From an uncultured Bacteroidales bacterium (GTDB lineage Bacteria; Bacteroidota; Bacteroidia; Bacteroidales; Paludibacteraceae), in the NCBI GenBank assembly GCA_900319005.1, contig ONMV01000003.1:175420-239419 (forward strand): a DNA stretch of 64,000 bases, in the 5' to 3' direction. Both the position numbers and the translations under genes were made by a program. This document shows positions 36,754-56,803 of this stretch, in pieces. The notes below the pieces were generated by a model. It was not told the origin of the DNA. It saw only the letters and a list, made by a program, of their open reading frames with translations, and did not search any database. Each line of letters begins with the position of its first letter. Within the stretch, counting starts at the first letter, position 1.

Positions 36754-36784
36754 TTGCAGAAATGAATTATTTTGTGTAACTTTG
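36754..36784 (+). promoter_or_regulatory. Promoter of the 20-kb secreted-protein locus
   Basis: TTG at 36754-36756, 20 bases, TAACTTTG at 36777-36784, then CAGCC. I see no other match of this quality before 56.7 kb on the plus strand, so the genes from 36824 to 56740 could be one transcript. Confidence 0.8.
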
Positions 36785-36823
36785 CAGCCTAATTCGTATA
36801 AAAATTGAGTTGTGGTGAGCGGA

Positions 36824-37711
36824 ATGAAACAAAATAGTACGTATACGAATATGCGGATGAGCGCGTTAGTGGTTATTCTGCTGGTATTTTTCTGTGTGCC
36901 TTCTATTGCACGTAACGCTATCCGTTTTAGCATGGATTTTTCTTACGCGCGCGACATTTCACGCACGGGTGTCCGCGTTTCTGATATCCATCCAATTACC
37001 CCGTCAGAGGCAATGGAATGGATTGGTAGCGGGCGCAATGAGGCTTTGTCGGGTTCTAATGGATTCTCTCCGGCATTCGGCTTTGGTTACCGCTATATGA
37101 ATCGTCTTTTTGTGTTGGATCTTGGGCTTGGTGCAGAGTATCGTTATTGTGTGAACCGTACCTATGGAATCATGGATGCGTCGGAAGGTGATGTCGATAC
37201 CCAGCAGACCAATTATATCGGACATCATTATTGGACTGACCGCGCAGTACATACGCAACATATGGGGCTGACTCTGCCTGTTATGGCGGGTTTCGAGATG
37301 AAGAATATCTGCTTCATGGTGGGTGTGAAAGGTGGTGTGGATATATGGAACATTTCAAGGGAGAAAGGTTCCTATTCGCTCCAGGCCGAGTATGAGCGAT
37401 ACATGGATTGGCTGATTAATATTCCCGGTCATGGAATTGTGGAGAAAGATCCTTATTCAATGCCTGCTGTGAATAATGCCGCAATGAGTTGGAATGTCCG
37501 TGCATGTGCGGAGATCAGTTATTGCTTTGCTGATTCCAAAGGCGGTAATAGGAATAGTCAAAAAATAAAACCCCGTTATTACGTGGGTGCTTTTGCTGAA
37601 TATAGTTTTGCCGGCACGAAGGGTGCCTACCTTCCGCTATTGGTGGGTGTAAGATTGACAGCTCTTTTGCAGTTGCCGGAGCCAAGACAATGTAAATGCT
37701 TGTTATTCTGA
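36824..37711 (+). CDS. Outer-membrane beta-barrel protein, paralogue 2
   Basis: A 295-residue protein with a signal peptide (MRMSALVVILLVFFCVPSIA). It shares with the genes at 31848 and 55121 the blocks GLTLPVMAGFEMKNICFMVG, YYVGAFAEYSFAG and LPLLVGVRLTALLQLPE, placed in the same order. It ends PRQCKCLLF. I infer an outer-membrane barrel of unknown function. The ATG at 36824 is preferred to the GTG at 36812 because it is closer to the signal peptide. The stop overlaps the ATG of the next gene (TGATG), so the barrel and the secreted protein are translationally coupled. Confidence 0.78.
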   Translation: MKQNSTYTNMRMSALVVILLVFFCVPSIARNAIRFSMDFSYARDISRTGVRVSDIHPITPSEAMEWIGSGRNEALSGSNGFSPAFGFGYRYMNRLFVLDLGLGAEYRYCVNRTYGIMDASEGDVDTQQTNYIGHHYWTDRAVHTQHMGLTLPVMAGFEMKNICFMVGVKGGVDIWNISREKGSYSLQAEYERYMDWLINIPGHGIVEKDPYSMPAVNNAAMSWNVRACAEISYCFADSKGGNRNSQKIKPRYYVGAFAEYSFAGTKGAYLPLLVGVRLTALLQLPEPRQCKCLLF

Positions 37712-40700
37712 TGAAAAAGCGGATATTCATATTGACTTTGTTAATCGGTTATTGCGCAGTGGTCAATACCGTTTTAGGAGCGGCTATCACGATGGCTGAT
37801 CTTCCTTATCTATGTGATTTTGAGAATGAGACGGAGAATGCCAACTGGGTGCTTAATCCCTCCATCAATACCATCTCTACTGCCAATCAATGGGTGATAG
37901 GTAAGGCGGTGTCTTATACAGGCCAGTACTCCATGTATGTATCTCAAGATGGAGGAGAGACGCAAACCTACGCTTCTACGAATAATGTGCTGTTGGCATA
38001 CCGTGATATTACCTTGGAAGCGGGCGATTATGATATAGCTTATGATTGGATGGGACTGGGCAATAAGACCAAAGGTTATTTGAAAGTTATTTACGCCAAT
38101 CGTCCTACCAGTGGTCTCAAATGTATGGGAAATGCTACAGAGCCTTCTTATGTAGCTACTTCCGTTCAATTGATGGGAAGCAACGCCAGTCTGGTGGACG
38201 GTGATGCGTGGCGCCATGTGCAAGCGCGGGTGACTATTCCTGTGGCGCAGGCTAACAAGACAACGACTCGTCTGCTTTTTGTATGGGTGAATACGGATGT
38301 GACGGTGAAAGACAGTATCACTTCTGTTGCGGTGGATAATTTCCAGTTGGCGAAAGCTTCTTCAATCGGTTATCCTTCTAACATACATGTTTCTACCGTT
38401 TTAGGTACTTCTACTGTCAGTTGGGAGGGAAATGCAGAGTCGTATGAGGTGATGTATCGCAAGAAAGGTGATAGTGAGTTCCAGTCGCTGCCAGTAACGG
38501 GTAATACCGTTACGCTGACGGATGTGGAATATGGTGCGTATGAGTTCTGGATCTGTTGTGTGAACGGGGAGGACAAGTCGGTCTATACCGTTTTCCCGAC
38601 AGTGTATCTGTATGAAACAGACTGCTTTGATGCCTTGAATATGTATAATGCTGAATTTGAGTATGGTACATGGAATCGCAATGGAAAGACAGTGAAGGGT
38701 TCGGAGCGTATTGATTATGGTCCGGGAGATATACGAAGCCGTCATACGACCCATTTTGATTTATCGGAAGTAGATCCGCGGACGGTGATAAAGAATTCAA
38801 GAGGAGATACGACTTACTGTCTGAAGACTGTTCCGAAGGGTGAGTTCGGTTCGGTGCGTCTCGGTAACTGGAATACAGGAAGCGAATATGAGTCCATGAC
38901 TTTCCATTATACGGTTGAGTCCAGTTCGATGGCGGTTCTCTTGATTCACTATGCGATGGTGCTTGAGAATCCGAATCACACGGCGCAGGACCAGCCTCGT
39001 TTTACGCTGGATGTGCTGGATGAGGCGGGCAATCCGATTGACAGACAATGTGCAAGCGTCGATTTTCATGCTCCTACCAGCGATGAATGGGATGATCCGT
39101 CGGTGCGGGATATTTGGCATCAGCTGACCTATTATGACAACGCCGGAGGATCCGGACGGCTTATCAACTGGCAGGAATGGAAAACGATTGGTATCAGCAT
39201 GGAGGATTATGTGGGACAGACGCTGACCATCACCCTTACCGCATATGATTGTGACCAAGGCGGACACTTTGGTTACTGCTATTTCATGCTCAATTGTTCT
39301 CGAAGCGATGTGGACGGATTGCCGTGGGGAGATGGTGCTACAACGCGTATGTTCACTGCGCCGGAAGGATTTGACTATGCATGGTTCAATCGTACGGATA
39401 CCGAATTGAAGGATACCATTGATAATACGAACCCGAACGTAAGACCCTATATCACGGAGGGAGGCAGGTTCTTCTATGTCCATGAGTCGGATACGAATAC
39501 CTACTTGTGCCATGTGACCTATCCTACGAATAAGGAGTGCGGATATTGGTTTGATGCCAGTGCTAAACCGCATAATCCCAAGGCGGAGATGGAGTTTTTA
39601 TGGAAACCGGAGAATTGCCGTAACGGATATGTATGGTGGAATAGATGCCATGTGATGCTGACGAATCAGGAGACAGGAGATATAGAACATCGCTATGACA
39701 AACATCTGGAGTCTTGTTTCCTCTTAACGGAGGAAGGACTGGAGGTGCCTGTTAAATATGCCGAGGAAGGTTTCTATGTGCCGATGCCCGATGAGGGAGG
39801 AATAGTACGCTATGGTATATGGACGGGTATTTATGTAAACGACAAGTTATTTGCCGATACCGCTTGGTATGAGTTTGAGGTGCCGGCGATAGGCGAATTG
39901 GAGACCCATTTGTTTGATAGTATTTGCCGGGGAGGCTCAATCATTTTCCCTGCCGGATCGAGAAATAAATACACGGAACCGGGAGAGTACCACGATAGTT
40001 TGAAATCGGTGATAACGGGATGTGACAGTATTGTCAAAATGCATTTGTATGTGCATGAGCCGATTGAGATGGATGTGTATGATACGATTTGTCCGGGAGG
40101 TTCCTATTCGTTCAATGGCAAGACGTATTATACATCGGGCAGATATACCGGTTTGTTTGTCAGTCAGGTCACAGGTTGCGACAGTGTCGTAACGCTCTAT
40201 CTGACCTTGGCTCCCAAGCCCTCCGTATCTCTCGTAGCCGATCGCTTGTGTTCGGATCAACCGCTCATCTTTGCTATCCATAATGGTTTCTATGTAGATA
40301 GTATGCGCGTGCGGGAGGGAGAATGGATAGATACGACTGCCGCTATCCGGCGGGATGGGGCGGAGATGATTATTCCGCTGACTAATAAGGATGTAGGGCA
40401 GCACGGAGCGGTTGTGAGTCTGTCTATGCCTTGGTGCGAGACGGTCTATACCGATACGATGTACTATAGCGTGAGTCTCTCCAATCGTATTATTGAGTTG
40501 CACTGGGATGATGTGCTCGTTTTCCTGGCTCCTGCTTATAATGGCGGTTTGACTTTTAACTCCTATCAATGGTATGCAAATGGAGAACTTATCCCCGGAG
40601 CTGTACAATCGTGGTATTATGATCCGGATATGAAGATGGATACAGAGTATCAGGTACGCGTGACGCTCCCCGATGGCGCGGAAGCATGGGTGTGTCCTTT

Positions 40701-40845
40701 CACGCCTGCCCAAGCAGGAGGGTTGACCAATTCCGGTCAAGCGCCTGCTAACGAGCAGAAAAGCATCAAGTTGCTGCGGAATGGCAACCTGAGAATCATC
40801 CATAATGAGAAAGAGTATAATGCCCAAGGGCAATTAGTATATTAA
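37711..40845 (+). CDS. Large secreted multidomain protein, short C-terminal tag (cargo A)
   Basis: A 1,044-residue protein with signal peptide (KKRIFILTLLIGYCAVVNTV). Order: a jelly-roll-like domain starting CDFENETENANWVL; an Fn3-like domain (VSWEGNAESYEVMYRKKG); a second jelly-roll domain (LKTVPKGEFGSVRLGNW, AMVLENPNH, FGYCYFMLNCS); a region with two GCDS modules near residues 770 and 820 (TGCDSIVKMHLYV, TGCDSVVTLYLTL); a domain with YQWYANGELIPGA near 953; and a terminal tag GNLRIIHNEKEYNAQGQL. The tag resembles the middle strand of a T9SS signal but lacks its second half. Paralogue of the next gene. Probably surface-exposed; function unknown. Confidence 0.78.
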   Translation: MKKRIFILTLLIGYCAVVNTVLGAAITMADLPYLCDFENETENANWVLNPSINTISTANQWVIGKAVSYTGQYSMYVSQDGGETQTYASTNNVLLAYRDITLEAGDYDIAYDWMGLGNKTKGYLKVIYANRPTSGLKCMGNATEPSYVATSVQLMGSNASLVDGDAWRHVQARVTIPVAQANKTTTRLLFVWVNTDVTVKDSITSVAVDNFQLAKASSIGYPSNIHVSTVLGTSTVSWEGNAESYEVMYRKKGDSEFQSLPVTGNTVTLTDVEYGAYEFWICCVNGEDKSVYTVFPTVYLYETDCFDALNMYNAEFEYGTWNRNGKTVKGSERIDYGPGDIRSRHTTHFDLSEVDPRTVIKNSRGDTTYCLKTVPKGEFGSVRLGNWNTGSEYESMTFHYTVESSSMAVLLIHYAMVLENPNHTAQDQPRFTLDVLDEAGNPIDRQCASVDFHAPTSDEWDDPSVRDIWHQLTYYDNAGGSGRLINWQEWKTIGISMEDYVGQTLTITLTAYDCDQGGHFGYCYFMLNCSRSDVDGLPWGDGATTRMFTAPEGFDYAWFNRTDTELKDTIDNTNPNVRPYITEGGRFFYVHESDTNTYLCHVTYPTNKECGYWFDASAKPHNPKAEMEFLWKPENCRNGYVWWNRCHVMLTNQETGDIEHRYDKHLESCFLLTEEGLEVPVKYAEEGFYVPMPDEGGIVRYGIWTGIYVNDKLFADTAWYEFEVPAIGELETHLFDSICRGGSIIFPAGSRNKYTEPGEYHDSLKSVITGCDSIVKMHLYVHEPIEMDVYDTICPGGSYSFNGKTYYTSGRYTGLFVSQVTGCDSVVTLYLTLAPKPSVSLVADRLCSDQPLIFAIHNGFYVDSMRVREGEWIDTTAAIRRDGAEMIIPLTNKDVGQHGAVVSLSMPWCETVYTDTMYYSVSLSNRIIELHWDDVLVFLAPAYNGGLTFNSYQWYANGELIPGAVQSWYYDPDMKMDTEYQVRVTLPDGAEAWVCPFTPAQAGGLTNSGQAPANEQKSIKLLRNGNLRIIHNEKEYNAQGQLVY

Positions 40846-40852: not shown

Positions 40853-43800
40853 ATGAGAAAAGTATTATACATAGTAGTGTCATTGTGGTTCGCAGGAACC
40901 ATGTTTGCGCAGAAACCGCATTCGTATAGTTGCGATTTTGAGAGTGCCAGCGAGAATGCGACATGGAAGTTGAATACGCCTAAAAACGAGTCATACACAT
41001 GGCTCAACCAATGGGCGATAGGTAGCGCTACTTCTTCTTTGGGCGCGCAATCGATGTATATATCTCCCGATAGTGGTAAGAATGTGGGGTATCAGCGGGA
41101 TCAGTCCAAAATCATGATCGCATGGCGTGAACTGGATTTGGAGGCAGGGCGCTATGATGTAGCTTTCGACTGGATGTGCGGTGGAGACTCTGCGCGTTCG
41201 GCATTATTGGTGGCATGGGTGCCGCAGAGCCAGTTTAACGACGTGGTCTGCAAACTCAATGATGATTATAAATCAACCCAATGGATCAATGATAATATGC
41301 TGAAATTTCAGGGTAGCGAGCTCCTGACCGGAGGATCGGTTTGGACGCATGCCGTTAATTCGCTGGAAACGGATGGTACTCCCCATCGGTTGATTTTCTG
41401 CTTCGTCAATAGCAGTTCGGCGCAATTGGTGCAACCCGGTCCTTGCGTGGATAATATACAATTATCCAGAAATAACTGCGGTTGCCCCACCAATATGAAA
41501 TCTTCGGTCTTCGGACAAACGGCTAAACTGGAGTGGGAGTCCACGGCTCAGAGCTTTAATCTGCGCATTCATAGGATGGGCGATAGTTATGCTACCATCC
41601 TTTCCGGTATTACGCAGAACTCGTTCTCTTCGTCCCTGCCGGAGGGTATCTATGATATTCATATTCAGACTATTTGCGATGGGGATACCAGTGTCTGGTA
41701 TAATTTCCCTACGGCATTCGTATATGAGACCAAATGTTTTGATTATCTGGATCTGACGGATGAGCGTTGCTCGTTCTCTTTGGAGACGGCGAGCGATTAT
41801 CATCATAGTGATGATGTGCTTCAAAAGGGCAAGATTGACTTCGGTTTTACCTCTGCTTATAGTCGTCATACCATCCATTTCCATCCGGAGGAGTATGACT
41901 CCAGAACGTATGGTTCAATTGATAGTCATGGTAATTTGGTAATGCCTCTAAAGACGGTTCCGGACGGAGCGTTGGCATCGGTGCGTGTAGGTAGTTGGGA
42001 GAAGGCGGCTCGTTCAGCACGTGTAGAATATGACTATGTTGTGGATGCCAAAGAAGCAAGTGTGCTGATGCTGCAATACGCGATGGTGCTTGAGTCTTCG
42101 GGACATAACGAAGAGGCGCGTCCTCGTCTGACTATCGATATAGTTGATGCTGCGACCGGTGAACCGCTTAGCGCTTGTACTACCGTCGATTTGGCGGCTC
42201 AGACCAGTGGCGAAGGATGGAATCGTGTTCCCGATCCGGCGTATCCGGATGGTAGCCGTGATGTATGTTGGCGCGATTGGACAACGCTGGGACTCAACCT
42301 TGCCGAGTTTGACGGACGTCATGTGAAAGTGAAAATCACGGCGCTCGGCTGTACAGCATCCATACACTATGGCTATGCGTATTTCACCCTCACCTGTACC
42401 TCCGGTCAGATCAAGGGTATCCACTGCGGTTGGACGCCGACCCGCCAGTTCATAGCGCCGGAAGGATTCAATTATCGCTGGTATAAAGTGACCCAGCCTA
42501 AGGAAACACTCGGACGCAATAATATCTACGATGTGGATTATAAGGATACCTGTACCTATGCGGTGGATATCACGTATAAATCCGATGCCGGTTGCGGGTT
42601 CACGCTCTATGCCAATGCGATACCCCGTTTCCCGATACCGGAGGCTACCTATAAGTTGGAGCAGCGCGATTGCGGTAATTATATCACTTTCAATAACACC
42701 AGTCATATCCGTACTCGCAACTGGACTACCGGCGAAGAGATCGACACGCCTTACCCGGCGGAGTATGTGGTATGGGATTTTGACGGACTCATACCCGAGG
42801 GATTGGATACACCGGATAAACTTTGGAATCCTTCCTTCCGTCTGCCCGACGAGGCTGCGGATTATCATTTCTCGCTGCGTGCCGTGGTAGGTCTGTGTGA
42901 TAGTATTCAGGAGTTTGATATCCATGTACCGCGCGTTGGGAAGGATTCGATTATAGATAATGTGCAGCTTTGCGAGGGGGATATCTATCGTCATAACGGC
43001 AAATATTATCAGAGCGATACCGTCATTATCGACCATGATTATAGCATTGCCGGTTGCGATAGTTTCTATACAATCAATCTGCGGTTTGTAGATGCCATCC
43101 GCGATACGATCATGGATACGATTCCGGAGGGAGAAAGTTATACGATAGGTGATCAGACCTTTACCCAACCCGGTAAGTATAGCGTCACCCTACCTTCCGC
43201 TGCGGGCTGCGATAGTATAATAACGCTGTATCTGGAGGTGGTTGCTCCTCTGCTGATGGAAATAAGCTCGGTAGAATCCCCTTGTCCGGAGGATGCCTCT
43301 TTCCTTATCTATACACACGCGCGTAAGGGCAAACCGGATTGGTATGAACTGACCTTTAGCGAAGCGGCACAGGCGATCGGTTTGGAGGCGCAGTCGGATT
43401 CATTGCACGGAGGTGTAGATAATACGATCGAGGTACCGCTCCCTGCGAACGCCGAACCGGGCTATTATACGTTCTCTATCCGCTTTGACAGTCAGGTGAA
43501 TGGAGAAACAGTTGTCGCGGGCGAACTGATGATTCATTATTCGAGCTCGTTTATCCAGCAGCGTTGGGATGATGTATTGGGTGTACTCAATGCCGATTAT
43601 AACGGAGGCTATGATTTCCGAACATTCCAATGGTATCGAAACGGAATAGCTATTGAGGGAGCGAATGAACCATACCTCTATGTGGAGGAAAAACTGAAGG
43701 CGGGCGATAAATATGCAGTGGAACTGAAACTCCCGGGAGAGGAAAAAGCATTATCTACCTGTGAATATGAGATCCCTGCCTCGGCAAATACGGCTCCGGC

Positions 43801-43891
43801 TGCGACGCCGCAGAAACGTTTCCAGAATGGAAGTATATTTATCCTTGTGAACGGTAGTCTGTATAATGCTTACGGACAAAAGATAAAATAA
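40853..43891 (+). CDS. Large secreted multidomain protein, short C-terminal tag (cargo B)
   Basis: A 1,012-residue paralogue of the previous protein, with the same domain order. Signal peptide KVLYIVVSLWFAGTMFAQ; N-terminal CDFESASENATWKLN; Fn3-like domain (LEWESTAQSFNLRIHRMG); second jelly-roll (LKTVPDGALASVRVGSW, AMVLESSGHN, YGYAYFTLTCT); GCDS modules near residues 732 and 783 (AGCDSFYTINLRF, AGCDSIITLYLEV); FQWYRNGIAIEGA near 926; and tag GSIFILVNGSLYNAYGQKIK. It begins 7 bp after cargo A stops. The pair looks like an old tandem duplication, now clearly diverged. No catalytic motif seen; an adhesive or structural role is an inference. Confidence 0.78.
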   Translation: MRKVLYIVVSLWFAGTMFAQKPHSYSCDFESASENATWKLNTPKNESYTWLNQWAIGSATSSLGAQSMYISPDSGKNVGYQRDQSKIMIAWRELDLEAGRYDVAFDWMCGGDSARSALLVAWVPQSQFNDVVCKLNDDYKSTQWINDNMLKFQGSELLTGGSVWTHAVNSLETDGTPHRLIFCFVNSSSAQLVQPGPCVDNIQLSRNNCGCPTNMKSSVFGQTAKLEWESTAQSFNLRIHRMGDSYATILSGITQNSFSSSLPEGIYDIHIQTICDGDTSVWYNFPTAFVYETKCFDYLDLTDERCSFSLETASDYHHSDDVLQKGKIDFGFTSAYSRHTIHFHPEEYDSRTYGSIDSHGNLVMPLKTVPDGALASVRVGSWEKAARSARVEYDYVVDAKEASVLMLQYAMVLESSGHNEEARPRLTIDIVDAATGEPLSACTTVDLAAQTSGEGWNRVPDPAYPDGSRDVCWRDWTTLGLNLAEFDGRHVKVKITALGCTASIHYGYAYFTLTCTSGQIKGIHCGWTPTRQFIAPEGFNYRWYKVTQPKETLGRNNIYDVDYKDTCTYAVDITYKSDAGCGFTLYANAIPRFPIPEATYKLEQRDCGNYITFNNTSHIRTRNWTTGEEIDTPYPAEYVVWDFDGLIPEGLDTPDKLWNPSFRLPDEAADYHFSLRAVVGLCDSIQEFDIHVPRVGKDSIIDNVQLCEGDIYRHNGKYYQSDTVIIDHDYSIAGCDSFYTINLRFVDAIRDTIMDTIPEGESYTIGDQTFTQPGKYSVTLPSAAGCDSIITLYLEVVAPLLMEISSVESPCPEDASFLIYTHARKGKPDWYELTFSEAAQAIGLEAQSDSLHGGVDNTIEVPLPANAEPGYYTFSIRFDSQVNGETVVAGELMIHYSSSFIQQRWDDVLGVLNADYNGGYDFRTFQWYRNGIAIEGANEPYLYVEEKLKAGDKYAVELKLPGEEKALSTCEYEIPASANTAPAATPQKRFQNGSIFILVNGSLYNAYGQKIK

Positions 43892-46900: not shown

Positions 46901-49900
46901 TCTCTGGCTACCGATCCGCAGCCGGTATCGGATGTAGAGGCTTCGGAAATTACCCAGACTGGTGCCAAACTTGCTTGGACTGAGAATGGTAAGGCTGCTA
47001 AATGGGAAGTGAAAGTCTTTGCGGAGGCTCCCGAAGACCCAGAGACAGCAGAAGCAGTTTGGTCGGCTACCGTTACCGAGAAACAGGCTGTTGCAACTGG
47101 TCTGAACCACTCTACGCAGTATTACGCTTATGTTCGTTCCGTGCAAGACAACGGCAACGGTGCATGGGGTAGTAGTTCCTTCTTTACCGAGTGTGGCACC
47201 TTTGCTACTCCGTTTACTGAGGATTGGGAGAGTTGGGCAACAGGTGCTAATACGTTGTCCGCTTGCTTCACGCAGACTGCTGGTATGCAGGTAGCCGGTT
47301 CTAGTTCGCCGAATGCAACGGTGAAGACTGGTCAGGTTATCAAGTTCAATGCAACCTCTACCAACAAAGAACCGATGCTTGTTCTTCCTGAGTTTGACAA
47401 ACCGATCAAGACCTTGCAGCTCACGATGAATGCCAGCCCTTATAGTTCTTCGTATGTAGGCGATGCTTCCTATACTGAGATTGGTGTACTGGAAGCCAAT
47501 GACAACTTTGTCAAGATCGCGGAGTATCGATTCAACTTGAGTGATGTGAAGGCTTGGGATGAGGTCTTTGTTAACTTTAGTGCTTATACCGGTGAAGGTG
47601 GCAGAATAGCTATCCGTACTCCGTATGCTACGGTTAACAAGACCATTCATATCTGCTTCGATAACTTGGTAGTTGAAGAGATTCCTACGATTGATGTAGA
47701 AGATATTGATTCTATCAGCGCAAAAATCAGTTGGGAGAAGGGTAAGACCGAGAATGCATGGAACCTCAAGATCAGTTCGACTGAATTGGAGGATCCGGCT
47801 ACCGGTAATGCAGATGTCTTCAGCGGTAAGGTAACCGAGCAGAGCAAGGTTATCGACGGCCTCGAAGGCAACACTACCTATTATATTTATGTTCAATCGG
47901 TAGATGAGGAACTCGAGTGCGAAGGTCAGTGGAGCAACGCAAAATCGTTCAAGACCACTTGTAAGAAACAGACCTTCCCGTATGAGGAGGACTTCGAGAG
48001 TTACGAGACAGGTTCCGGTAAAGACCTCGGCTGTAACACGCTTAGCGGTCCGGATGCCAACCACTCGTATATCTCTACAAAGGGTGGCAGCAAGGCACTC
48101 TATCTGCGTCAGGCTACGAAGGGTAATCACAACTACTTTGCCTTCCCAGCTTTGGCGGTTGATTCCGTAAAGCGTCTGCAACTCAGTATGCAGGTTTATT
48201 CGGGTGGTACAACGGCTACAACCAAGTATGCTTTTGAGGTAGGTATTATGACCGATCCGAACGACCCGAGTACCTTTGTAGCGACGCATAAGGATACGGT
48301 GATGGGTGCTTCGACGGCTTATGACCGTTCGTATACCTTTGAAAACTATAAGGGTGACGAGACGGGAACCAAATTCGGAACATTCATCGCTCTCAAGTCA
48401 ATGGAGTCCACCAACGCTACCGGTTCTACCAGTGCAGGTTATGTATATATTGACAATGTATATATTGACTTCATTGAGACTTGTCCGGCTCCGACAGATT
48501 TGCAAACAGACTCTGTAGGTATCTATGGTGCTAAATTCACTTGGTTGACGGATGATAAGACTGTTCCGCATCGCATCCGCGTCTATGACGATGCAGCGGC
48601 TAAACCGAGCAGCGAAGACTTCATTAAAGAGGTTGTAGTTAGCGATACCACTAGTGTTATCATCGAAGGTCTTCAGTCGCTCACGAAGTACTATGCTTTT
48701 GTTCGCAAGGAGTGCGCTCCGAACGACTTAAGCAAGTGGAGTAGCGCATGGGCCTTCAAGACTGAGTGTCCCGAGAAGCGCGAGTTGCCGTATGAGGAAG
48801 GTTTCGATGGTGATACCAACCCGTTGGCTGACTACTGCTGGGTAAGTTATATGGTTCAAGGTCCTTCAGGCTGTACGACCGATAACACCGCTAAGTCTTC
48901 TACTTCGGCTAAGAAAGATGGTACGCGCGGTCTATATCTGGTATATAGCGAAGTTTCTTCTCAGGCAGGTGGTTCTTGCGTTGGTACCCACCGCGCAGCG
49001 GCCATCACCCCGGCTTTGGATGTAGAGAACCTGAGCGAGTTGTTGCTCTACTTCGATGTGAAGTCCAGCTCTTCGACCGCGAAGGCAGGTGTTAAGATTG
49101 AGGCTGTTTCCGATCAAACTAAGGATGCAGACGCTATCTATATCACCACCATCAACGATATCGAGTATGGTTCATGGAAGAAAGCATATGTTCGCATTGC
49201 GGACTACTATACTTCTGTTCAGGCATACAAGTATCTGCGCTTCACGACCACTACTGCTGCCGGTGCATACATCGATAACTTGGTATTGACCAAGGATCTG
49301 AATGTCGTACTGCCGGTTGAAGCATTGAAAGTGCAGATGTTGACGGAGAGCAGTATCAAGTTCTCGTTCGTGGAGAATACGCCTTCGGTTAACCAATGGC
49401 AAGTGGCGTATGTAGCTGCCGGTGGTGACATCGCAGATGCAACGGTGAAGACCATTGACGAGACTGAATATACGATAGAGGGCTTGGCGGCTAACACCAG
49501 CTATGATATCTACGTTCGCGGTAATGTAGAAGGCAATGCATGGGTTGGTCCGTTGACGGCTACTACTATCCAGACACCGGCACCGCTTCCGCTCATCACA
49601 GGATTTGAGGATGATGCTGATAAATGGGTAATCTATAAGACGAAAACCGTACAAGGCGATTCGTATCCTAACTTCTTTATCGTTGGCGACGCAGATAAGT
49701 GCGGAGCTGCGGGTGAAAAGGCATTGTTCATTACGAATGATAGTATTTCGTATGCTTATCAGACCAAGGATGCACAAGGAGAAATCGGATTCTCGAATGC
49801 TTGGGCGACATGTAATATCAACATCGAAGGTGCCGGAACGTACAAGTTCAGCTTTAAGGTCAAAGTTCCTGCTAACAAGGAGAATGAAAGCGATTATGCA

Positions 49901-52645
49901 AATGCACACTTGTTCCCTGCCGGTGCTTCCATCCTTGCAGGAACGGCTACTATGTTAAATGGAAAAACACGTGCTGGTACGGCTGTAACAGATGTTCCTG
50001 CTGACAATATCTACTCATTGATGGGTAAGACTCTCCACGAGAATGAGTGGATTTGGGTTACGAAGTCGATTGATGTGGAAGAGGCTGGTATCTATACACT
50101 TGCTATCTTCTGGTATAATGCATCGGTAGGTGCACAGTATGGTGAGGCCATAGCTGTTGACTCTGTCATTGTAGAGGAATACCTCTGCACCACGCCGAAG
50201 GATATCGAGTACACCAACCGTGCTGCTAATGAGGTTAGCCTCAAGTGGTTCGGCGGTAAGTGCAAGAACTTTGAGTATGTACTCTCTCGCTATGCGAACT
50301 TAGGTAATCCTGCCCTCATCGATGCGGAGGATAAGGTGGCTTACGGTACGCTGACCGAAGGTCCGGCTGTAACGCTGACTAACCTCATGCCGCAGACTAA
50401 GTACAGCTTCTATGTTCGTACGATCTGCGAGGACGGTACTACCGATTGGGTTGAGTATGACTTCCTTACTCCTTGTGGTAAGTATGACCTGCCATACACG
50501 GAAGGTTTCTTCGAGGATGCTCCTGAGTGCTGGACTCTCAGTGGTGCTACTGCAGGAAAAACTTCTGTAGGTACTTCTGCAAATCATGAGGAATGGCGTC
50601 GTCTGTTGTTGGCCAACAATGGTTATGCGATCCTGCCTGAATTGGCGGTTGACCTCAAGAATGTGGAAGTGGAGATTGGTCTCTTCAATACGACTGCGAA
50701 CTATGGCGCTATTTCGCTCGGCGTGATGGATAATACCTATGACGTGGATTCGTACAAGGAGATTGCCTTCTTCCAGACCCAGACCAAGCCTGCAAGCACC
50801 GGTTCTTACGTCCCGACCCAATTGGAGGTATTCAATAAGATGATGAATCTCTATCAGGGAACAGGTAAGGTATTGGCTATCAAGAATGCAACGGCTAACT
50901 CTATCGGCGTGAAGTATGTCAAACTGACCGAACTGCCTGACTGTGTGAAACCGCAGCAGGTTGAGTTGACCTTTGTCAAAGATAATGAGGCAACTGTGAA
51001 CTGGTTGGCAGGTCTCGAAGAGGCTTGGGAAATTCAACTCAATGACTCTGTTATTGAGAACGTGACGACCAATCCGTATAAACTGACCAACCTCGAGCAG
51101 GGTACGGTTTATACCGTAGCTGTTCGTGCTATCTGCGATGAGAATAGCAAGAGCGAGTGGTCACTCCCGGCTACTTTCCAAACTGCTTGTGGTGTGAACG
51201 CACTGCCGATGTTTGAGGACTTCAGTTCTTTGACAGAATCGAACAGCCGTGCTACGATAACCTGCTGGAGCAATATGGTTACCGATCTGCCAATCGAGTC
51301 CGTATTCAATGGTACGGCAAGTCCGTATGAGCCGGCATCCAGTGTATATTACACCTACACATGGATTGCGAACTATCTCACTCAATTGGGTGATGACCAC
51401 CAGTTGTTGTTCTTCGGTAGTTCATTGCTTACAAGCGGTCCGAAGTATCGTTGGATGATTACGCCGCAGTATGCAATCGATGGCAAGGCTTCGCTCAGCT
51501 TCGATGTTCGTCATACGGATAATAAGAACTGTGCTGCGAAACCCGACGGACGCTTCATTGTCGCTATCTCTACCGATAATGGCGCTACTTGGAAAGAGGC
51601 GGATGCTACCGTGATTACGGATATTGATTCGGTTTATACCACCAAGTCCGTTTTGCTTGATAAGTATGCTGGCCAGAACATCCGTGTAGCCTTCTACATG
51701 GAGAACCTCGGCGGTACGACTACTTCCGGTAAGGGTAGTGGTATCTTCACGCTCCTGGATAACATCCGCATGAACTGCACCGATGAGTATGCATATACCG
51801 ACAACGCTTGCCAAGGCTATGCCTATGAAGGTAATGGCTTTGAGATCCAACCGGAAGATCTGCCGGTAGCCGGAGCTGATAGCACCTACTATCGCTTCGC
51901 TGCTAACAAAGAGAACGGTTGTGATAGCGTCATCGCCCTGACTATCACTACACGCACGGCGTCGGAGATAGCTCCTGTTTACGCTACAATCTGCCAAGGG
52001 GAGGTATATGAGTTTGGTGGACAGAATCTCACCGAGCCGAACCCGGCTGACAAACCGTACTTCATCACCGGTGCAAACCAATACGGTTGCGATAGTACCA
52101 TCTATCTCTACCTCACGGTGGCTCCGGCGGATACCTCTGCTGTAGTGGAGAAGACGATTCATCAGGATGATTCCTATATCATCGATGAGTTCTTCACTCT
52201 CCCGACGGAGACAGCTATCGGCGTTACGGTAGATACCATCGTGAAGACTAATGATTGCTCGTTCAACCATTATGTCATCACTCTGATCTGCCATAACGAT
52301 ACGACTACCATTCCGGTTGAGATAGCGGTAGATGAACTGCCCTATGAGGTTGACGAAATCTACACTATCCCGGAAGGAACTCCGGTTGGCTCGTATGAGG
52401 AAGTATTACCGAATGGTAAAGAGTGTAGTTATAACCTCTACGTCGTTACCATCACGGATGTCATAACCGGTCTCATCAACCTGTCCGATGAGGTAGAGCG
52501 TATTGATGTATATGATGCGCTTGGACGTAAGGTGCGTTCGATCCGTCACGGTGAAGAACAGTACCAACTCCCGACCGGCGTTTATATGCTGCAAACCATT
52601 ATGAAGAGCGGAGCTGTGGTTAACCACAAAGCAACTCTGAAATAA
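43940..52645 (+). CDS. Giant jelly-roll/Fn3 surface protein with T9SS signal
   Basis: A 2,901-residue secreted protein. Signal peptide (LLVTMLMVLGLTTATAQ), then alternating units: about ten jelly-roll domains of cleaved-adhesin/MAM type (openings such as FSEDFENAISTCYTI, YEEDFESYETGSG, closings such as FMDDIRIEAASACP and YIDNVYIDFIETCP) and nine Fn3 domains (for example LKWIETGNATEWNLVLS, LQPNTTYYAYVQAGCGSSEW). Near residues 2658 and 2714 are two GCDS modules, and the C-terminus is a full T9SS type A signal (IDVYDALGRKVRSI ... LPTGVYMLQ). Such domains occur in HagA and gingipain adhesin regions of Porphyromonas. I infer a surface adhesin, perhaps processed by the adjacent C10 protease. Confidence 0.88.
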   Translation: MKRLFTHCLLVTMLMVLGLTTATAQKSVLDESFASGSKPAGWTVGSYWNFSDGNAKFNAPFENGADTMVSPLLNLSELDNQPSVAFTYSIAANGDKVNELQVLYRASEAAEWSVLETFAQATEKTDWKSALPVNSSSIQIAIAGAYKQGGETRVYRLSVENKTEAAELPTGLKIEDLTTNSVTLWWDVCSSLKFVQYNLKVNSSKMTDMSAQADIVDNVGWGITDEFYELSDLKPNKTYWFYVQYDCGDGDVSPWAEMDFRTPCEAISGSFSEDFENAISTCYTIIKGGANAEVSGEYAYNSQRAFKSNSVKGKYNYFILPEFNGNVQNYQVSFMAASADGGNTYARTVTVGVCTEATAEGFTAVKTLNLPKGRVWEQVVVTLKGYNGTGKYIAFQFGNEDKENRLFMDDIRIEAASACPKPMFLEVSEINPNSAKLKWIETGNATEWNLVLSTKPLANPEDIEPDASKGEFAGSVSTNPYKLTNLQPNTTYYAYVQAGCGSSEWTNAVEFKTSRAVSYPYSEHFDRLDPDAYTNDMYAVPSGWVMDCRNAHEGGTYYDQQPSESTYKSFVPYVVTSQNNETTAYVKAALQLKGQSDGTGSTSANVGIAMLPAMPKAVNTMMITFWAKATSGNHTLKVGVANTQSNELTPGQQFGANITEVGEATILKDEWKQYKVLLTNYTGEGRYIVLYLKPGTSTSTVYIDDIEIDDAPDCNAVSTVSATATGIDKATVEWTDASSSTSWTLKVSSTEIDPTSADGDIVAAQTVNAKTYDITGLAMGQTYYIYVSPTCGDAWMSTTVTTLVGLQVPYYNDFQDENQGSNAARGPKNWTLGNINVTAALGTQTNIPYVYNTAMTGAPADVVKPNLYFYHSNSATNAGAYAIMPELLNANVKDLKMSFYGSYNSTTVTANYSKGMIRVGVVDNPSDINKTNAFTKVTPIKTLYCSAPKITELFTVDFSEYAGSGKYIVFYSDTAKYNYFMLDNLTISLATDPQPVSDVEASEITQTGAKLAWTENGKAAKWEVKVFAEAPEDPETAEAVWSATVTEKQAVATGLNHSTQYYAYVRSVQDNGNGAWGSSSFFTECGTFATPFTEDWESWATGANTLSACFTQTAGMQVAGSSSPNATVKTGQVIKFNATSTNKEPMLVLPEFDKPIKTLQLTMNASPYSSSYVGDASYTEIGVLEANDNFVKIAEYRFNLSDVKAWDEVFVNFSAYTGEGGRIAIRTPYATVNKTIHICFDNLVVEEIPTIDVEDIDSISAKISWEKGKTENAWNLKISSTELEDPATGNADVFSGKVTEQSKVIDGLEGNTTYYIYVQSVDEELECEGQWSNAKSFKTTCKKQTFPYEEDFESYETGSGKDLGCNTLSGPDANHSYISTKGGSKALYLRQATKGNHNYFAFPALAVDSVKRLQLSMQVYSGGTTATTKYAFEVGIMTDPNDPSTFVATHKDTVMGASTAYDRSYTFENYKGDETGTKFGTFIALKSMESTNATGSTSAGYVYIDNVYIDFIETCPAPTDLQTDSVGIYGAKFTWLTDDKTVPHRIRVYDDAAAKPSSEDFIKEVVVSDTTSVIIEGLQSLTKYYAFVRKECAPNDLSKWSSAWAFKTECPEKRELPYEEGFDGDTNPLADYCWVSYMVQGPSGCTTDNTAKSSTSAKKDGTRGLYLVYSEVSSQAGGSCVGTHRAAAITPALDVENLSELLLYFDVKSSSSTAKAGVKIEAVSDQTKDADAIYITTINDIEYGSWKKAYVRIADYYTSVQAYKYLRFTTTTAAGAYIDNLVLTKDLNVVLPVEALKVQMLTESSIKFSFVENTPSVNQWQVAYVAAGGDIADATVKTIDETEYTIEGLAANTSYDIYVRGNVEGNAWVGPLTATTIQTPAPLPLITGFEDDADKWVIYKTKTVQGDSYPNFFIVGDADKCGAAGEKALFITNDSISYAYQTKDAQGEIGFSNAWATCNINIEGAGTYKFSFKVKVPANKENESDYANAHLFPAGASILAGTATMLNGKTRAGTAVTDVPADNIYSLMGKTLHENEWIWVTKSIDVEEAGIYTLAIFWYNASVGAQYGEAIAVDSVIVEEYLCTTPKDIEYTNRAANEVSLKWFGGKCKNFEYVLSRYANLGNPALIDAEDKVAYGTLTEGPAVTLTNLMPQTKYSFYVRTICEDGTTDWVEYDFLTPCGKYDLPYTEGFFEDAPECWTLSGATAGKTSVGTSANHEEWRRLLLANNGYAILPELAVDLKNVEVEIGLFNTTANYGAISLGVMDNTYDVDSYKEIAFFQTQTKPASTGSYVPTQLEVFNKMMNLYQGTGKVLAIKNATANSIGVKYVKLTELPDCVKPQQVELTFVKDNEATVNWLAGLEEAWEIQLNDSVIENVTTNPYKLTNLEQGTVYTVAVRAICDENSKSEWSLPATFQTACGVNALPMFEDFSSLTESNSRATITCWSNMVTDLPIESVFNGTASPYEPASSVYYTYTWIANYLTQLGDDHQLLFFGSSLLTSGPKYRWMITPQYAIDGKASLSFDVRHTDNKNCAAKPDGRFIVAISTDNGATWKEADATVITDIDSVYTTKSVLLDKYAGQNIRVAFYMENLGGTTTSGKGSGIFTLLDNIRMNCTDEYAYTDNACQGYAYEGNGFEIQPEDLPVAGADSTYYRFAANKENGCDSVIALTITTRTASEIAPVYATICQGEVYEFGGQNLTEPNPADKPYFITGANQYGCDSTIYLYLTVAPADTSAVVEKTIHQDDSYIIDEFFTLPTETAIGVTVDTIVKTNDCSFNHYVITLICHNDTTTIPVEIAVDELPYEVDEIYTIPEGTPVGSYEEVLPNGKECSYNLYVVTITDVITGLINLSDEVERIDVYDALGRKVRSIRHGEEQYQLPTGVYMLQTIMKSGAVVNHKATLK

Positions 52646-52654
52646 TGTATTCTC

Positions 52655-52682
52655 GGATAGCCCGATTGGGTTCGGGCTATCT
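52655..52682 (+). other. Stem-loop after the giant gene
   Basis: GATAGCCCGA (52656-52665) and TCGGGCTATC (52672-52681) form a 10-bp stem with a 6-base loop. There is no T run, so it may stabilise the upstream mRNA or attenuate transcription without ending it. Confidence 0.6.
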
Positions 52683-52690
52683 GTCCAAGT

Positions 52691-52722
52691 AAAGTTTAAA
52701 GTTTAAAGTTTAAAGTTTAAAG
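52691..52722. repeat. Heptanucleotide repeat (AAAGTTT x 4.6) before the C10 protease
   Basis: Four full AAAGTTT units plus AAAG, ending 4 bases before the GTG start codon at 52727. It fills most of the space where ribosome binding would take place. Confidence 0.85.
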
Positions 52723-52726
52723 ATAG

Positions 52727-55117
52727 GTGAAGCGTCTTTTGATCATAGGAATGGCCTTATGGGCGGCTGTCCATCTGAGCGCCGGTATCCGCACCGCTGC
52801 GGATGCTCTCCGCATTGCTGAGGACTTTATGGAGACTAGTGTTCCTAGGGCTTCTAGGATTCCTAAGGCTCCTAGTTCTCCTAGTTCAGCCGGTCCCGTT
52901 ATCGCCGATTCCTCGGCGATATACCTCGCTGTCAATACCTCGCCGGGCTATGTACTGGTGGGAGCTGATGAGCGTTTGCCTCAGGTGCTTGCATATAGCG
53001 ATACCGGCGCTTTTGATCCCGAGAATATCTCTCCCGAGTTCCAATACTGGATGACCTGCTATGAGGAAGAACTAAACCAAATCCAACAGCGAACCGGTCT
53101 ATCAGCGAAGCGCTCTATCAGCGCAAGCGGTCTAACTGCGATTCCCCCTCTCTGCCCTTCCCAATGGAACCAGAGTGCCCCGTATAATAAGTTCGCACCC
53201 ATGTATAATGAAAAGGGTGGGCAATGCGTCACGGGATGTGTGGCTACTGCGATGGCGCAAATCATGTTTACCCATCGTTATCCGCAGTATGGCACCGGCT
53301 CACATTCCTATCTATGGGTATGTACCAATCCTGTAGGAGCTACTGCTACCCTCTCTGCGGATTTCGGGCAGACTGTCTATCAATGGGAGAACATGCTCCC
53401 TTCCTATAAATCCGGCTATACGCTCGCCCAGGCGGATGCTGTGGCTACCCTGATGTACCATTGCGGCGTGGCGGTGAATATGGGTTACGGACAATCGTCC
53501 GGTGCTTATACGGCGGAAGTTCCCCTCGCGCTGAAGACTTATTTCGGCTATGATGCCAATTATCAGCGCATCCAGAAAGTGATGTACGCACCCGATAGTC
53601 TGGCCGCTATCGTGCGCGCCGAGTTAAACGCCAAAAGACCGGTGCTCATCAGCGGCTCCAATGATGAGGGAGGACACGCTTTCGTTTGCGACGGATGCGA
53701 CAATAAAGGCTTTTTCCATATCAACTGGGGATGGGGGGGCAGCAATGACGGATATTTTCTGCTCACTGCCCTCAACCCCGGCTCCAAACAGGGTATAGGC
53801 GGCACAACGCAGGGCTATAACAAAGGAACGACGTTCTTTATCGGTCTCCAGCCTGCTGCGGCTGCTTCGCCTAAACCGATACCGCAATTAGCCGCACGAC
53901 AACTCTCTGTGAGCGACGAATCGTTCAGCCGCACCAAAGCTTTCTCCGCTTCGGTGGAGCGATTGGAGAATTTCGGTCTGGACGATTTCTCCGGTGCGTA
54001 TGGAATAGCCCTCTACGACGAGGATGAATCGCACTTGATTGCGCTCCTAGCGCAAAACAGTGCCTATTCGCTCAAGGCAGGTTATCATCGGACCACATTG
54101 GCTACTTTTGATAACCTCAAGATACCTGCCTCCCTGCCGGAGGGAACCTACCATCTCTCTTTCGTCTATCGCAATGCCAACTATGATTGGATGAGGATGT
54201 TAATGACCCAGGATGACTATTTCCGGACGCTGGAGGTCACTCCTTCTACCGTCACTTTCTATCCCAATGATGCACCCGCGGAGTTGTCGCTGGAGGCACC
54301 TATCGCCTTCCCTGAGGGCACCAATAACGACTCGGTACCCATGACCGGACTGCCACTCTCTTTTATTGTGAAGAATACCGGCGGTACGTTCCGCGGAGAG
54401 ATATCCGCCCGTATATACAAAGGGGCATTCTCGAAGGGGCAGTACGAGGTAATGGATGAAGTGGTCATTCGTCGCAGCCAATCGCTGGCATCTGCTCTGC
54501 AGGAGAATTTTGATGCCAACCTCTTGCTCGATACACAGTATAAAATGAGACTCTGTTGGCGAGCTGACGCGAATGATGCTTGGCATAATTTCGAACCCGC
54601 GGAGTATGCCGAACTGCCATTTAAGTTATACGACCCCGATTACCATCTTTCCCTGACCGACACCATCCATTTTGATAATAATGACAGTGTCCCCCGTACG
54701 CACGCCAACCTCTATTATTCGATTAAGAACACAGGTGCTGTTTTCCATGGTCAGTTGCAGGTGTCTTTCTATGAGGGACCTTTCTCACGGGGGAAGAGTT
54801 CGCTTCAGGAGATCACTGTGGGTACGGGAGAAACGCTCTCGGGAGCTTTCTCCGGTCCGCTGGAGCAACTGCCCGGCACCTATGAGGTCATTCTGAGATA
54901 TCGGGAAAAAGAGGGCGATTGGATGGACTTCACGGATGTGATCGGAGATAACCTTGGAGATATCTTTGCTACCGTCTATGAGGATACACCTACCGACCTT
55001 GAGGAGGTAAATCATCAATTTGAAATCATAAATCGTAAATATATCCAATCCGGACACCTCTTCATTGAGCGCGACGGAAAGACCTATAATGTGTTAGGAA
55101 TAATGCTGAAAAAATAA
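52727..55117 (+). CDS. C10-family cysteine protease, secreted, short C-terminal tag
   Basis: A 796-residue protein with GTG start and signal peptide MKRLLIIGMALWAAVHLSAG. Residues 21-130 are the Spi-type propeptide (AADALRIAEDFM ... GYVLVGADERLPQVLAYS), and the peptidase domain runs to about 380. Catalytic Cys171 lies in CVTGCVATAMAQIM and catalytic His317 in GGHAFVCDG, followed by FHINWGWGGSNDGYFLL. Two beta-sandwich domains follow (about 390-590 and 640-760), and the tail is GHLFIERDGKTYNVLGIML. The prodomain holds five tripeptides of xPR/xPS type (39-53) from a 9-bp repeat. It resembles streptopain and the interpain of oral Prevotella; substrate unknown, with the neighbouring adhesins as candidates. 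Confidence 0.92.
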   Translation: MKRLLIIGMALWAAVHLSAGIRTAADALRIAEDFMETSVPRASRIPKAPSSPSSAGPVIADSSAIYLAVNTSPGYVLVGADERLPQVLAYSDTGAFDPENISPEFQYWMTCYEEELNQIQQRTGLSAKRSISASGLTAIPPLCPSQWNQSAPYNKFAPMYNEKGGQCVTGCVATAMAQIMFTHRYPQYGTGSHSYLWVCTNPVGATATLSADFGQTVYQWENMLPSYKSGYTLAQADAVATLMYHCGVAVNMGYGQSSGAYTAEVPLALKTYFGYDANYQRIQKVMYAPDSLAAIVRAELNAKRPVLISGSNDEGGHAFVCDGCDNKGFFHINWGWGGSNDGYFLLTALNPGSKQGIGGTTQGYNKGTTFFIGLQPAAAASPKPIPQLAARQLSVSDESFSRTKAFSASVERLENFGLDDFSGAYGIALYDEDESHLIALLAQNSAYSLKAGYHRTTLATFDNLKIPASLPEGTYHLSFVYRNANYDWMRMLMTQDDYFRTLEVTPSTVTFYPNDAPAELSLEAPIAFPEGTNNDSVPMTGLPLSFIVKNTGGTFRGEISARIYKGAFSKGQYEVMDEVVIRRSQSLASALQENFDANLLLDTQYKMRLCWRADANDAWHNFEPAEYAELPFKLYDPDYHLSLTDTIHFDNNDSVPRTHANLYYSIKNTGAVFHGQLQVSFYEGPFSRGKSSLQEITVGTGETLSGAFSGPLEQLPGTYEVILRYREKEGDWMDFTDVIGDNLGDIFATVYEDTPTDLEEVNHQFEIINRKYIQSGHLFIERDGKTYNVLGIMLKK
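52832..52885. repeat. 9-bp tandem repeat in the C10 prodomain
   Basis: Units of the form NNTCCTAGG: 52841, 52850, 52859, 52868 and 52877, with a looser unit at 52832. Each unit gives one tripeptide, so copy changes keep the frame. Confidence 0.75.
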
Positions 55118-55120
55118 AGA

Positions 55121-56740
55121 ATGATGAAATATAAATTAAGTGTTGTATTATTATTTTGCGCCGCTGTCTTGAGCGCAAATGTGAAGAAGGAGAGTCGCCA
55201 TTTCCTGACGACCGAAGCGGGTATAGGCTATTCGTCTTTTCTTAACTCCTCTGATTTAGGCAAGTCTTCCGGACTCGTCGGAGGTAAGGTGCAGGTGGGG
55301 TATGAATGGAATTATCGGCATTTTATACTCCATACCGGTCTTGAGTTCTCCCTCATTAGTGATCAGATTAAGGCGACCCCTAATCCCGGAGAAGTGCCTT
55401 ATACACAGGGACTTATAGGAGCTCCGATGAGCATGCATTATGCCTTCCCCTCCTATACTGTCAAGCCGCTGATGGGGCAGGTGAATATACCTGTTCAGGT
55501 AGGTGCCGTGTTCCAAAACCGCTATTATTTCTTAGCCGGTGCGCGGATTGGTCTGCCAGTCATTCATACCGCTTCTACTTCCGCACAACTGCATACCTAC
55601 CTCACCGATCCGACGCTCATCGGAGAACTCAATAACGTCCCTGTTCATGACGCTTATACCTCTTCCGAGAGAGCCTCGCATACATGGTCGGCAAGTATGA
55701 TCAATGCGCAGCTTTCAGCGGAGTTTGGATTGATTCTCAACTCTTTCTGGGAGAAACCAGAGCCCAAAACCAAAGGACGCCAGTCCAGAAATGCATCGTC
55801 CATGCGTGGCCGATCGAAAGGTGGTAAAAAACCCATCCTCTATCGCGTGGCGGTCTTTGCCGATTATGGCATCACTTCGGCAATCCAATCCCCGGCACAA
55901 CCTGTCCCCCTTGCTACGGTTGAATCAACCCCGCAGAACGCTCGTCAGGTGACCCTCAATGATTATTTTGCTTCGCAGACAGGCAAGGCTAACTCGCTAC
56001 TCGTCGGCGCTAAGTTTGCTATTCTCTTCCAACTCAACGAGCAGAAGCCCGCCAAACCGGTGCCTTCTTATTTCGATATCTATATCGCGGACGCAAATAC
56101 CTCCAAACCAATACCTGCCAGTCTGGAGATTTACGACCATGCTAAGAAACGCGCCCAGAAACGCGAAGCACGAAATGGACGTACGCGTTATCGCGCTAAA
56201 ACAGGTGAATATACCATCACGGCTTCTAATGCGCAGTATTATCCTGAAAAACAGACTGTTACAATGGATGAAGAAGGAATCACGGATACTCTCCGATTTG
56301 CCCTTCAACCGCTGCCGGCACCCGTCGTAATAGATACTCCGATCATCGAAGTGCCCATCAAAGTGGGAACCAAAGTGGTGTTGCATAATCTCTTCTTTGC
56401 GACCAACAAAACGTATATTCTCCCTGAGTCCGAAGATGCCCTCAATGACTTGGCTGCATTCTTAACCAAGCATAGCACCGTAGCGATCCGCATCACAGGT
56501 CATACCGATGCAGTCGGCTCCGAAGAAGCCAACCAGCGTCTCTCCGAAGGACGTGCTAACGCGGTCCGCGATGAACTCATCAAGAGAGGTATAGACCCGA
56601 CTCGCATTGAGGCGGAAGGTAAAGGCGAGAACGAGCCTATTGCCGATAATGCGACCGAAGAAGGACGCGCTAAGAACCGCCGCGTGGAGTTCACAATCAT
56701 CTCCACCGGGGACGAAGATATCGAGCAGATCAAAGAGTAA
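55121..56740 (+). CDS. Outer-membrane barrel-OmpA fusion, paralogue 3
   Basis: A 539-residue protein: signal peptide (KLSVVLLFCAAVLSA), then an N-terminal barrel-like part that is the third paralogue (VNIPVQVGAVFQNRYYFLAG, YRVAVFADYGITS, NSLLVGAKFAILFQLNE). A small beta domain (TSKPIPASLEIYDHAKKRA) follows, and last an OmpA peptidoglycan-binding domain: LHNLFFATNKTYILPESEDA, ITGHTDAVGSEEANQRLSEG, RAKNRRVEFTI, with the diaminopimelate-binding Asp and Arg in place. It probably anchors the secreted-protein locus to the cell wall. It lies 3 bp after the C10 gene and is closed by a terminator. Confidence 0.88.
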   Translation: MMKYKLSVVLLFCAAVLSANVKKESRHFLTTEAGIGYSSFLNSSDLGKSSGLVGGKVQVGYEWNYRHFILHTGLEFSLISDQIKATPNPGEVPYTQGLIGAPMSMHYAFPSYTVKPLMGQVNIPVQVGAVFQNRYYFLAGARIGLPVIHTASTSAQLHTYLTDPTLIGELNNVPVHDAYTSSERASHTWSASMINAQLSAEFGLILNSFWEKPEPKTKGRQSRNASSMRGRSKGGKKPILYRVAVFADYGITSAIQSPAQPVPLATVESTPQNARQVTLNDYFASQTGKANSLLVGAKFAILFQLNEQKPAKPVPSYFDIYIADANTSKPIPASLEIYDHAKKRAQKREARNGRTRYRAKTGEYTITASNAQYYPEKQTVTMDEEGITDTLRFALQPLPAPVVIDTPIIEVPIKVGTKVVLHNLFFATNKTYILPESEDALNDLAAFLTKHSTVAIRITGHTDAVGSEEANQRLSEGRANAVRDELIKRGIDPTRIEAEGKGENEPIADNATEEGRAKNRRVEFTIISTGDEDIEQIKE

Positions 56741-56762
56741 ATTTCTCCCACGATCAGTGGCC

Positions 56763-56803
56763 AAAAAGGAGGAGGGTGTCTTTCGGATACCTTCCTCTTT
56801 TTT
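56763..56803 (+). terminator. Terminator at the end of the secreted-protein locus
   Basis: AAAAAGGAGGAGGGTGTC, a TTTC loop, GGATACCTTCCTCTTTTTT. A long stem with one bulge and six T after it. Confidence 0.8.

Follow-up and report, generated by a model that had tools for sequence, protein, structure and literature searches.

A recurrent cassette of candidate type IX secretion adhesins and two outer-membrane barrels in the Paludibacteraceae

Organization of the locus

The locus described here lies in a 64,000-nucleotide stretch of DNA (the window; positions are counted from its first letter) from contig ONMV01000003.1, positions 175,420 to 239,419, of the assembly GCA_900319005.1, an uncultured Bacteroidales bacterium of the family Paludibacteraceae. 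Between positions 36754 and 56803 the window holds six open reading frames (ORFs) on the + strand, the strand of the parts of the locus and of the other window genes placed below. Five of these genes form a recurrent cassette, which encodes two paralogous cargo proteins of about 1,000 residues, a giant of about 2,900 residues with choice-of-anchor J and Fn3 domains, a small outer-membrane barrel and a barrel–OmpA fusion. The remaining gene encodes a C10 cysteine protease.

The first gene encodes the outer-membrane barrel P0001 (299 aa, 36812–37711), with a signal peptide recognised by eye and a fold predicted by AlphaFold2 and compared by Foldseek. It is followed by cargo A (1049 aa, 37696–40845), a multidomain β protein with a short C-terminal tail, by cargo B (1012 aa, 40853–43891), and by the giant cargo (2901 aa, 43940–52645), in which six choice-of-anchor J and six Fn3 stretches were detected. 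The C10 protease (796 aa, 52727–55117) has a Spi-type inhibitor prodomain and a short tail, and the barrel-OmpA fusion P0006 (539 aa, 55121–56740) closes the run. The intergenic gaps are, in gene order, −16, 7, 48, 81 and 3 nt. A match to the Bacteroidota-type promoter, TTG-N20-TAACTTTG, was found by a pattern scan at 36754–36784, and a terminator hairpin lies at 56763–56803. An earlier note on this DNA had set six genes between one promoter and one terminator and had described the cargo as duplicated; the six ORFs, the promoter match and the 3′ hairpin were all found where it had placed them, and cargo A and cargo B are indeed paralogues, with 29% identity.

The cargo family keeps 34 invariant columns in an alignment of 40 sequences. 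The AlphaFold2 model of cargo B is a chain of β domains, with a predicted local distance difference test score (pLDDT) of 84.2 and a predicted TM-score (pTM) of 0.55. The fold closest to this model is that of the GhpA hook protein of Aureispira, at a low TM-score (0.12); such low scores are expected for chains of immunoglobulin (Ig)-like domains. Sequence searches of the PDB with cargo B and the giant gave nothing useful. The giant ends in a type A-like C-terminal region of the type IX secretion system (T9SS) at 52475–52642, which matches TIGR04183 with an E value of 0.002 and 18.1 bits where 23 is the cut-off; this family is unmatched in cargo A, in cargo B and in the C10 protease. Most cargo homologues, judged by eye, end in type A-like C-termini. 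Assignment as type B cargo was rejected, since the NCBIfam scan gave no match to TIGR04131 at a threshold of E 1.

Recurrence across the family

Relatives of the cargo proteins (E up to 1e-30) were found in 34 of 120 genomes of the family, spread over 13 of 33 genera and including the genome studied here. About a hundred cargo matches were listed, and 40 regions holding some of these were fetched, picked mainly by score and by the size of the contig; another 30 were then added, of which 28 extend downstream of gldJ in other genomes of the genus. The resulting sample comprises 41 loci in which a cargo gene is complete, one of them the window's; several share a genome, and several are truncated where the contig or region stops. 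Two or more cargo genes are present in 33 of these loci and a giant in 26. The barrel-OmpA gene was found in 20, the small barrel in 15 and either barrel in 25, and both barrels, the giant and two cargo genes occur together in ten. The gene orders vary, and include barrel–cargo–giant–cargo–OmpA, giant–barrel–cargo–OmpA–cargo and cargo–cargo–giant, among others. The earlier note had held that neighbours varying freely among relatives would speak against a unit. What was found lies between the two outcomes: the combination of barrel, two cargo genes and giant recurs across the family and the gene set is kept, but the order, the sequences and the extra genes vary, and the C10 protease is present in just one of the 41 loci, that of the window.

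The association extends to whole genomes. The barrel family, small or OmpA-fused, is present in all 34 cargo-positive genomes, compared with 39 of the 86 cargo-negative ones; when the 11 genomes that supplied rows of the barrel profile are removed, the counts become 23/23 and 39/86 (Fisher test, 2.6e-7, uncorrected for kinship). Moreover, four further loci of the genome studied here, L137 (C31), L139 and L140 (C34) and L141 (C23), pair a barrel and/or a barrel-OmpA protein with T9SS-type proteins. At one of these four, a 4,367-residue giant adjoins a barrel with a CMC tail.

The locus lies downstream of a gldJ-like gene and gcvH, and the same site was compared among genus-mates, of which 30 of 31 genomes carry the gldJ-like gene. 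Of the 20 genus-mate stretches fetched, six (G122, G125, G132, G135, G139 and G143) have another cassette or giant behind gcvH; the remaining 14, of which some are short, have none. Cargo and barrel-OmpA genes are present at five of the six occupied sites and, by map reading, the small barrel at four of these, G143 being the exception; in G139 the contig stops after the giant. The best same-site cargo matches are 27–30% identical to the window's, GldJ is 86–89% identical, and no C10 protease was seen at the occupied sites. It looks as if whole versions of the cassette have been replaced at one site.

The two barrels

AlphaFold2 models the small barrel (pLDDT 81.5, pTM 0.72) with 11 strand segments, which we read as eight barrel strands. 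The best Foldseek matches are to eight-stranded folds, among them OmpA, Ail, NspA and OmpX, with probabilities of 0.99–1.00 and TM-scores of 0.25–0.37, whereas the FadL chains among the listed matches reach probabilities of 0.10–0.33. Identification of the small barrel as PorP/SprF was rejected, given that it has no match to TIGR03519 and that its model is not of the 14-stranded FadL type. Generic OMP_b-brl matches were obtained in 7/18 and 3/18 of the aligned barrel relatives, and a sequence search of the PDB with the barrel profile gave nothing useful. Following the last strand of the model, the C-terminal tail at 37673–37708 contains Cys294-x-Cys296 and is predicted to be periplasmic because the strand count is even.

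In the alignment of 18 barrel relatives (A1) such twin cysteines lie beyond the last strand in 16 members, as C-x-C in 13 and C-x-x-C in three, despite a mean column identity of 25%. A search of the 120 family genomes with the barrel profile returned 30 loci, 11 of which are genes already in A1; 18 of the 19 new loci hold a short barrel, a few being near-copies of one another, and the twin-cysteine tail is present in 17 of these 18. By comparison, 22 of 469 other program-made ORFs of at least 200 residues have such a tail.

The fused barrel P0006 has no twin cysteines, nor do any of the 22 barrel-OmpA ORFs collected, which include one 98-residue fragment and two ORFs cut at region ends. In their place stands the OmpA peptidoglycan-binding domain, located at 56393–56680 in P0006 (PF00691, E 3.2e-24, 85.6 bits against a cut-off of 27.2). 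The seven OmpA-fused barrels in a tree of 46 barrels form one clade with a support of 98/90; the bootstrap had not converged, and the tree does not decide whether the solitary barrels belong to a single clade. A locus search with the barrel-OmpA protein returned 22 loci, mostly matching the OmpA domain alone, and was uninformative. One solitary relative of the small barrel, with the tail CVIC, is located in the window at 31848–32909. Its own relatives lie near gldJ in G101, G111 (L155) and G121 (L130), and it may be the core PorG of the genus.

A proposed anchoring system

The genome studied here encodes the Sov/SprA translocon, PorK and PorP. The porP gene adjoins porK, followed by two ORFs whose products, judged by eye, resemble PorL and PorM, and is the one match to TIGR03519 (PorP/SprF) in this 85%-complete genome. 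In Flavobacterium, as described in a report of November 2025 (PMC12635249), SprF and a predicted eight-stranded PorG form disulfide bonds, through their Cys-x-Cys tails, with Cys343 of GldK in the moving track; the counterpart of this residue in Porphyromonas gingivalis is given there as PorK Cys356, and PorG of that species has a single tail cysteine. Cys330 of the PorK studied here aligns with the Cys at 356 of P. gingivalis PorK (PDB 9mzu_A). Given this residue and the conserved twin-cysteine tail of the barrels, both halves of the bond are present in the sequence.

On these grounds we favour, at roughly even odds (a probability of about 0.5), the reading that the locus is a recurrent T9SS adhesin cassette with one barrel tethered to the track and the other tethered to the cell wall. 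The giant and the two proteins of about 1,000 residues would leave the cell through Sov/SprA and stand on its surface as chains of Ig-like and jelly-roll domains, and the two related outer-membrane barrels would bind this cargo and hold or move it. A disulfide bond would join the periplasmic Cys-x-Cys of the PorG-like small barrel to the mobile PorK/N track, at the exposed Cys of PorK, while the barrel-OmpA sister would grip peptidoglycan through the OmpA domain. The former could thus serve as a mobile anchor and the latter as a static one. Of the parts of this scheme, the gene set, its recurrence, the twin cysteines, the PorK Cys and the OmpA domain are read from sequence, and the barrel fold with its about eight strands is a model prediction; export, the binding of cargo by the barrels, the disulfide and movement are inferred.

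Several observations weigh against this reading. Type A cargo is known to reach lipopolysaccharide (LPS) via PorV and PorU. The fold matches of the small barrel have low TM-scores and include the 10-stranded OmpT and Pla, and the number of eight strands is therefore not settled. At the level of sequence no link to PorG emerged: no NCBIfam family matches the 18 barrels at E 0.01, and a search with PF19573, which we take to be the PorG family, gave no match here, though none in the controls either. The barrel of the window is itself a very divergent member of its family, with an end branch of 2.18 and a best identity of 24%. One clade of cassette barrels (L106:12005–12973, L124:2889–3851 and L154:1367–2326) lacks the tail cysteines, and the single short barrel outside A1 without them belongs to the same clade; the tether is thus not universal. 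Finally, 16 of the 41 cargo loci have neither barrel in the DNA fetched, some being cut by contig ends, and barrels are also found in 39 genomes without strong cargo matches.

A broader version of the tethered-barrel reading can be put forward tentatively, and we hold it to be doubtful. PorG-type small barrels may have multiplied in one family and become joined to giant adhesins, each being bolted by a disulfide to the PorK/N (possibly GldJ/K/N) track, which would make motor-driven adhesins independent of SprF, with the OmpA-fused sister as a static anchor. Should the barrels of the cassette rely on this disulfide chemistry, the track would drive more surface proteins than SprF and PorG, perhaps in non-gliding species; the group that carries the cassette is not known to glide.

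Alternative explanations

Could the locus be no more than a conventional T9SS adhesin cluster, with its adhesins fixed to LPS by PorU and flanked by porin-like barrels whose cysteines help the barrel to fold or bind metal? This is a possible explanation, if one that we would not bet on. The type A-like C-termini of the giant and of most cargo homologues agree with it, as does the finding in Prevotella intermedia that short and long signals are both cleaved and glycosylated (PMC11969387, as described in its text), and some of the barrels match the generic OMP_b-brl alone. It leaves unexplained, however, that the barrels recur with cargo in varied gene orders and co-occur with it across genomes, and that the twin-cysteine tail is conserved at so low a column identity and is absent from every OmpA-fused ORF. 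A true gliding-adhesin system, whose track in this genus would be extended to GldJ/K/N, shares the tether motif (twin-cysteine tails and PorK Cys330) with the tethered-barrel reading, and we consider it improbable. The GldJ-like lipoprotein ORF (34416–36182) two genes upstream of the barrel, present almost throughout the genus and separate from porK, would fit such a system and is possibly an extra track component in the genus; its TIGR03524 score of 354 bits, however, is below the cut-off of 458, and the one PorP/SprF-family gene found in the genome is the one beside porK.

HagA with the gingipains is a pairing of large surface adhesins and a cysteine protease, and large surface adhesins beside a cysteine protease are found here too. 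The earlier note had drawn this analogy in inferring a surface adhesion and processing system; on a protease-centred reading of it, the C10 protease would process the neighbouring adhesins in the way that gingipains mature HagA. The protease stands in the same gene run, 3 nt from the last gene, has a short tail of the type of cargo A and B, and is the only C10 gene found in its genome; it matches PF01640 with E 5.6e-70, and its catalytic domain aligns with interpain A and streptopain, the regions TGCVATA and GGHAFV, which presumably hold the catalytic Cys and His, aligning with the latter. Nevertheless, besides its presence in one of 41 cargo loci, C10 is no more frequent in the cargo-positive genomes of the family (18 of 34) than in the cargo-negative ones (51 of 86), with no association; the processing unit is therefore unsupported, and a strong hairpin and a repeat between the giant and protease genes also speak against it. 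In contrast to HagA and the gingipains, the six proteins contain neither C25 nor Cleaved_Adhesin at E 0.1, and the protease is no conserved part. Hence the analogy falls away and processing by C10 appears very unlikely, while the rest of the earlier claim, a T9SS surface unit with outer-membrane partners, is retained, with Sov/SprA, PorK, PorP and the recurrence of the gene set on its side. We propose that the protease is a later passenger of this copy of the cassette. A foreign composition of its gene was also considered; its GC content at third codon positions is 0.558 as against 0.52 in the giant, slightly higher and not decisive.

Comparison with known systems

The SprB–SprF operon includes an OmpA-domain protein, SprD. 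Like the cassette, the SprB–SprF system of Flavobacterium johnsoniae combines a giant T9SS adhesin with a barrel partner that has a twin-cysteine tail, as it is described in PMC12635249 and PMC9143113. The barrel here differs in lacking a TIGR03519 match and in its model, which is no 14-stranded barrel like FadL; the cargo proteins end in type A-like or short tails rather than type B ones, and two additional cargo proteins of about 1,000 residues are present. With the core T9SS protein PorG, by the account in PMC12635249, the cassette barrel shares its small size and the cysteines in a periplasmic C-tail. Unlike PorG, the cassette barrels occur in many copies per genome beside cargo genes, and they are likened to it by predicted fold and tail, not by sequence homology. 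The PorE–PorP–PG1035 system of P. gingivalis also has a barrel-held surface protein and a link to peptidoglycan via an OmpA-like domain; in the description of PMC9143113, the barrel and the OmpA-like domain are separate, whereas here they are fused and the barrel is of another family. Judged against the open-access literature, we propose that the cassette is a T9SS adhesin-plus-barrel variant distinct from PorP/SprF.

The short C-terminal tail

Cargo A (40741–40842), cargo B (43787–43888) and the protease (55004–55114) end in a short tail with the pattern K-x-hydrophobic...N/D-G-x-L-x-I...Y-x(2-3)-G-Q-x-V, which forms three short strands in the model of cargo B. A profile of this tail, built partly from sequences of this genus, finds 62 copies in the genome studied here (G000; for example L172–L211) and 8–63 copies in each of eight sampled genomes of the genus, this one included. 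A chance frameshift or truncation was rejected as its origin because of this recurrence. At E 1e-5 the tail occurs in 25 of the 120 family genomes and is concentrated in this genus; in an order-wide sample it was found in 3 of 147 other genomes at E 0.001. Tail types are swapped among relatives, the giants of G132 having the short tail and its cargo genes the long one.

Forty of the 53 listed copies of the own genome were fetched, eight more lie in DNA fetched before and five were left unread. The tail is at the C-terminus of the ORF in 39 of the 40. A T-G-[IVML] or T-D-[IVL] motif, a pattern picked after viewing the tails, is present in 27 of them, in 25 at 36–41 residues from the end, as against 6% in shuffles of the upstream part; the window's own three tails, which are outside this set, have no clear TG[IV] site. 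The T9SS signals of P. intermedia, short ones included, have a cleavage consensus of PT/GI (PMC11969387). The short C-terminal domains of that species, of about 40–55 residues, resemble the tail in being short C-terminal signals with a T/G-I type site and a predicted three-stranded sheet. They differ, in a comparison by eye with the text of PMC11969387, in having motifs B, D (GxY) and E in order, whereas the tail here stops at Y-x(2-3)-G without GxY. If the short tail acts as such a signal, minimal T9SS signals would be common in this genus.

Expression signals and neighbouring features

The promoter match is the sole + strand match inside the locus, and 13 + strand matches to the pattern were observed in the window compared with 2.7 (standard deviation 1.5) in block shuffles. 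Scans for sigma-70-type promoters found sites no more often than in shuffled sequence and were discarded. At the 3′ end, the fold of 56741–56815 has −34.1 kcal/mol and a z of −4.95; the hairpin is absent from the list of a simple terminator scan because its T run base-pairs inside the stem. The upstream gcvH gene, too, is followed by a terminator-like site, at 36605–36629.

Two features missed by the earlier reader separate the giant from the protease, namely a 12-bp hairpin without a U-run directly 3′ of the giant gene (52654–52683; −21.7 kcal/mol, z −4.40) and a 7-bp tandem repeat of 4.7 copies directly 5′ of the protease start codon (52690–52722). Of 211 loci fetched, their exact patterns match in one, L100, which is the protease locus of the window itself. 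Given these two features, the last two genes may differ in expression from the others, and a single transcript across the six genes is a possibility. The copy number of the 7-bp repeat could vary and thereby alter expression.

Further short tandem repeats, with units of 8–11 bp, lie at 56878–57255, between the terminator and the glyceraldehyde-3-phosphate dehydrogenase (GAPDH) gene. Elsewhere in the window, six abutting or overlapping genes at 18120–24912, of which three look glycosyltransferase-like by NCBIfam matches, perhaps constitute a surface-polysaccharide block.

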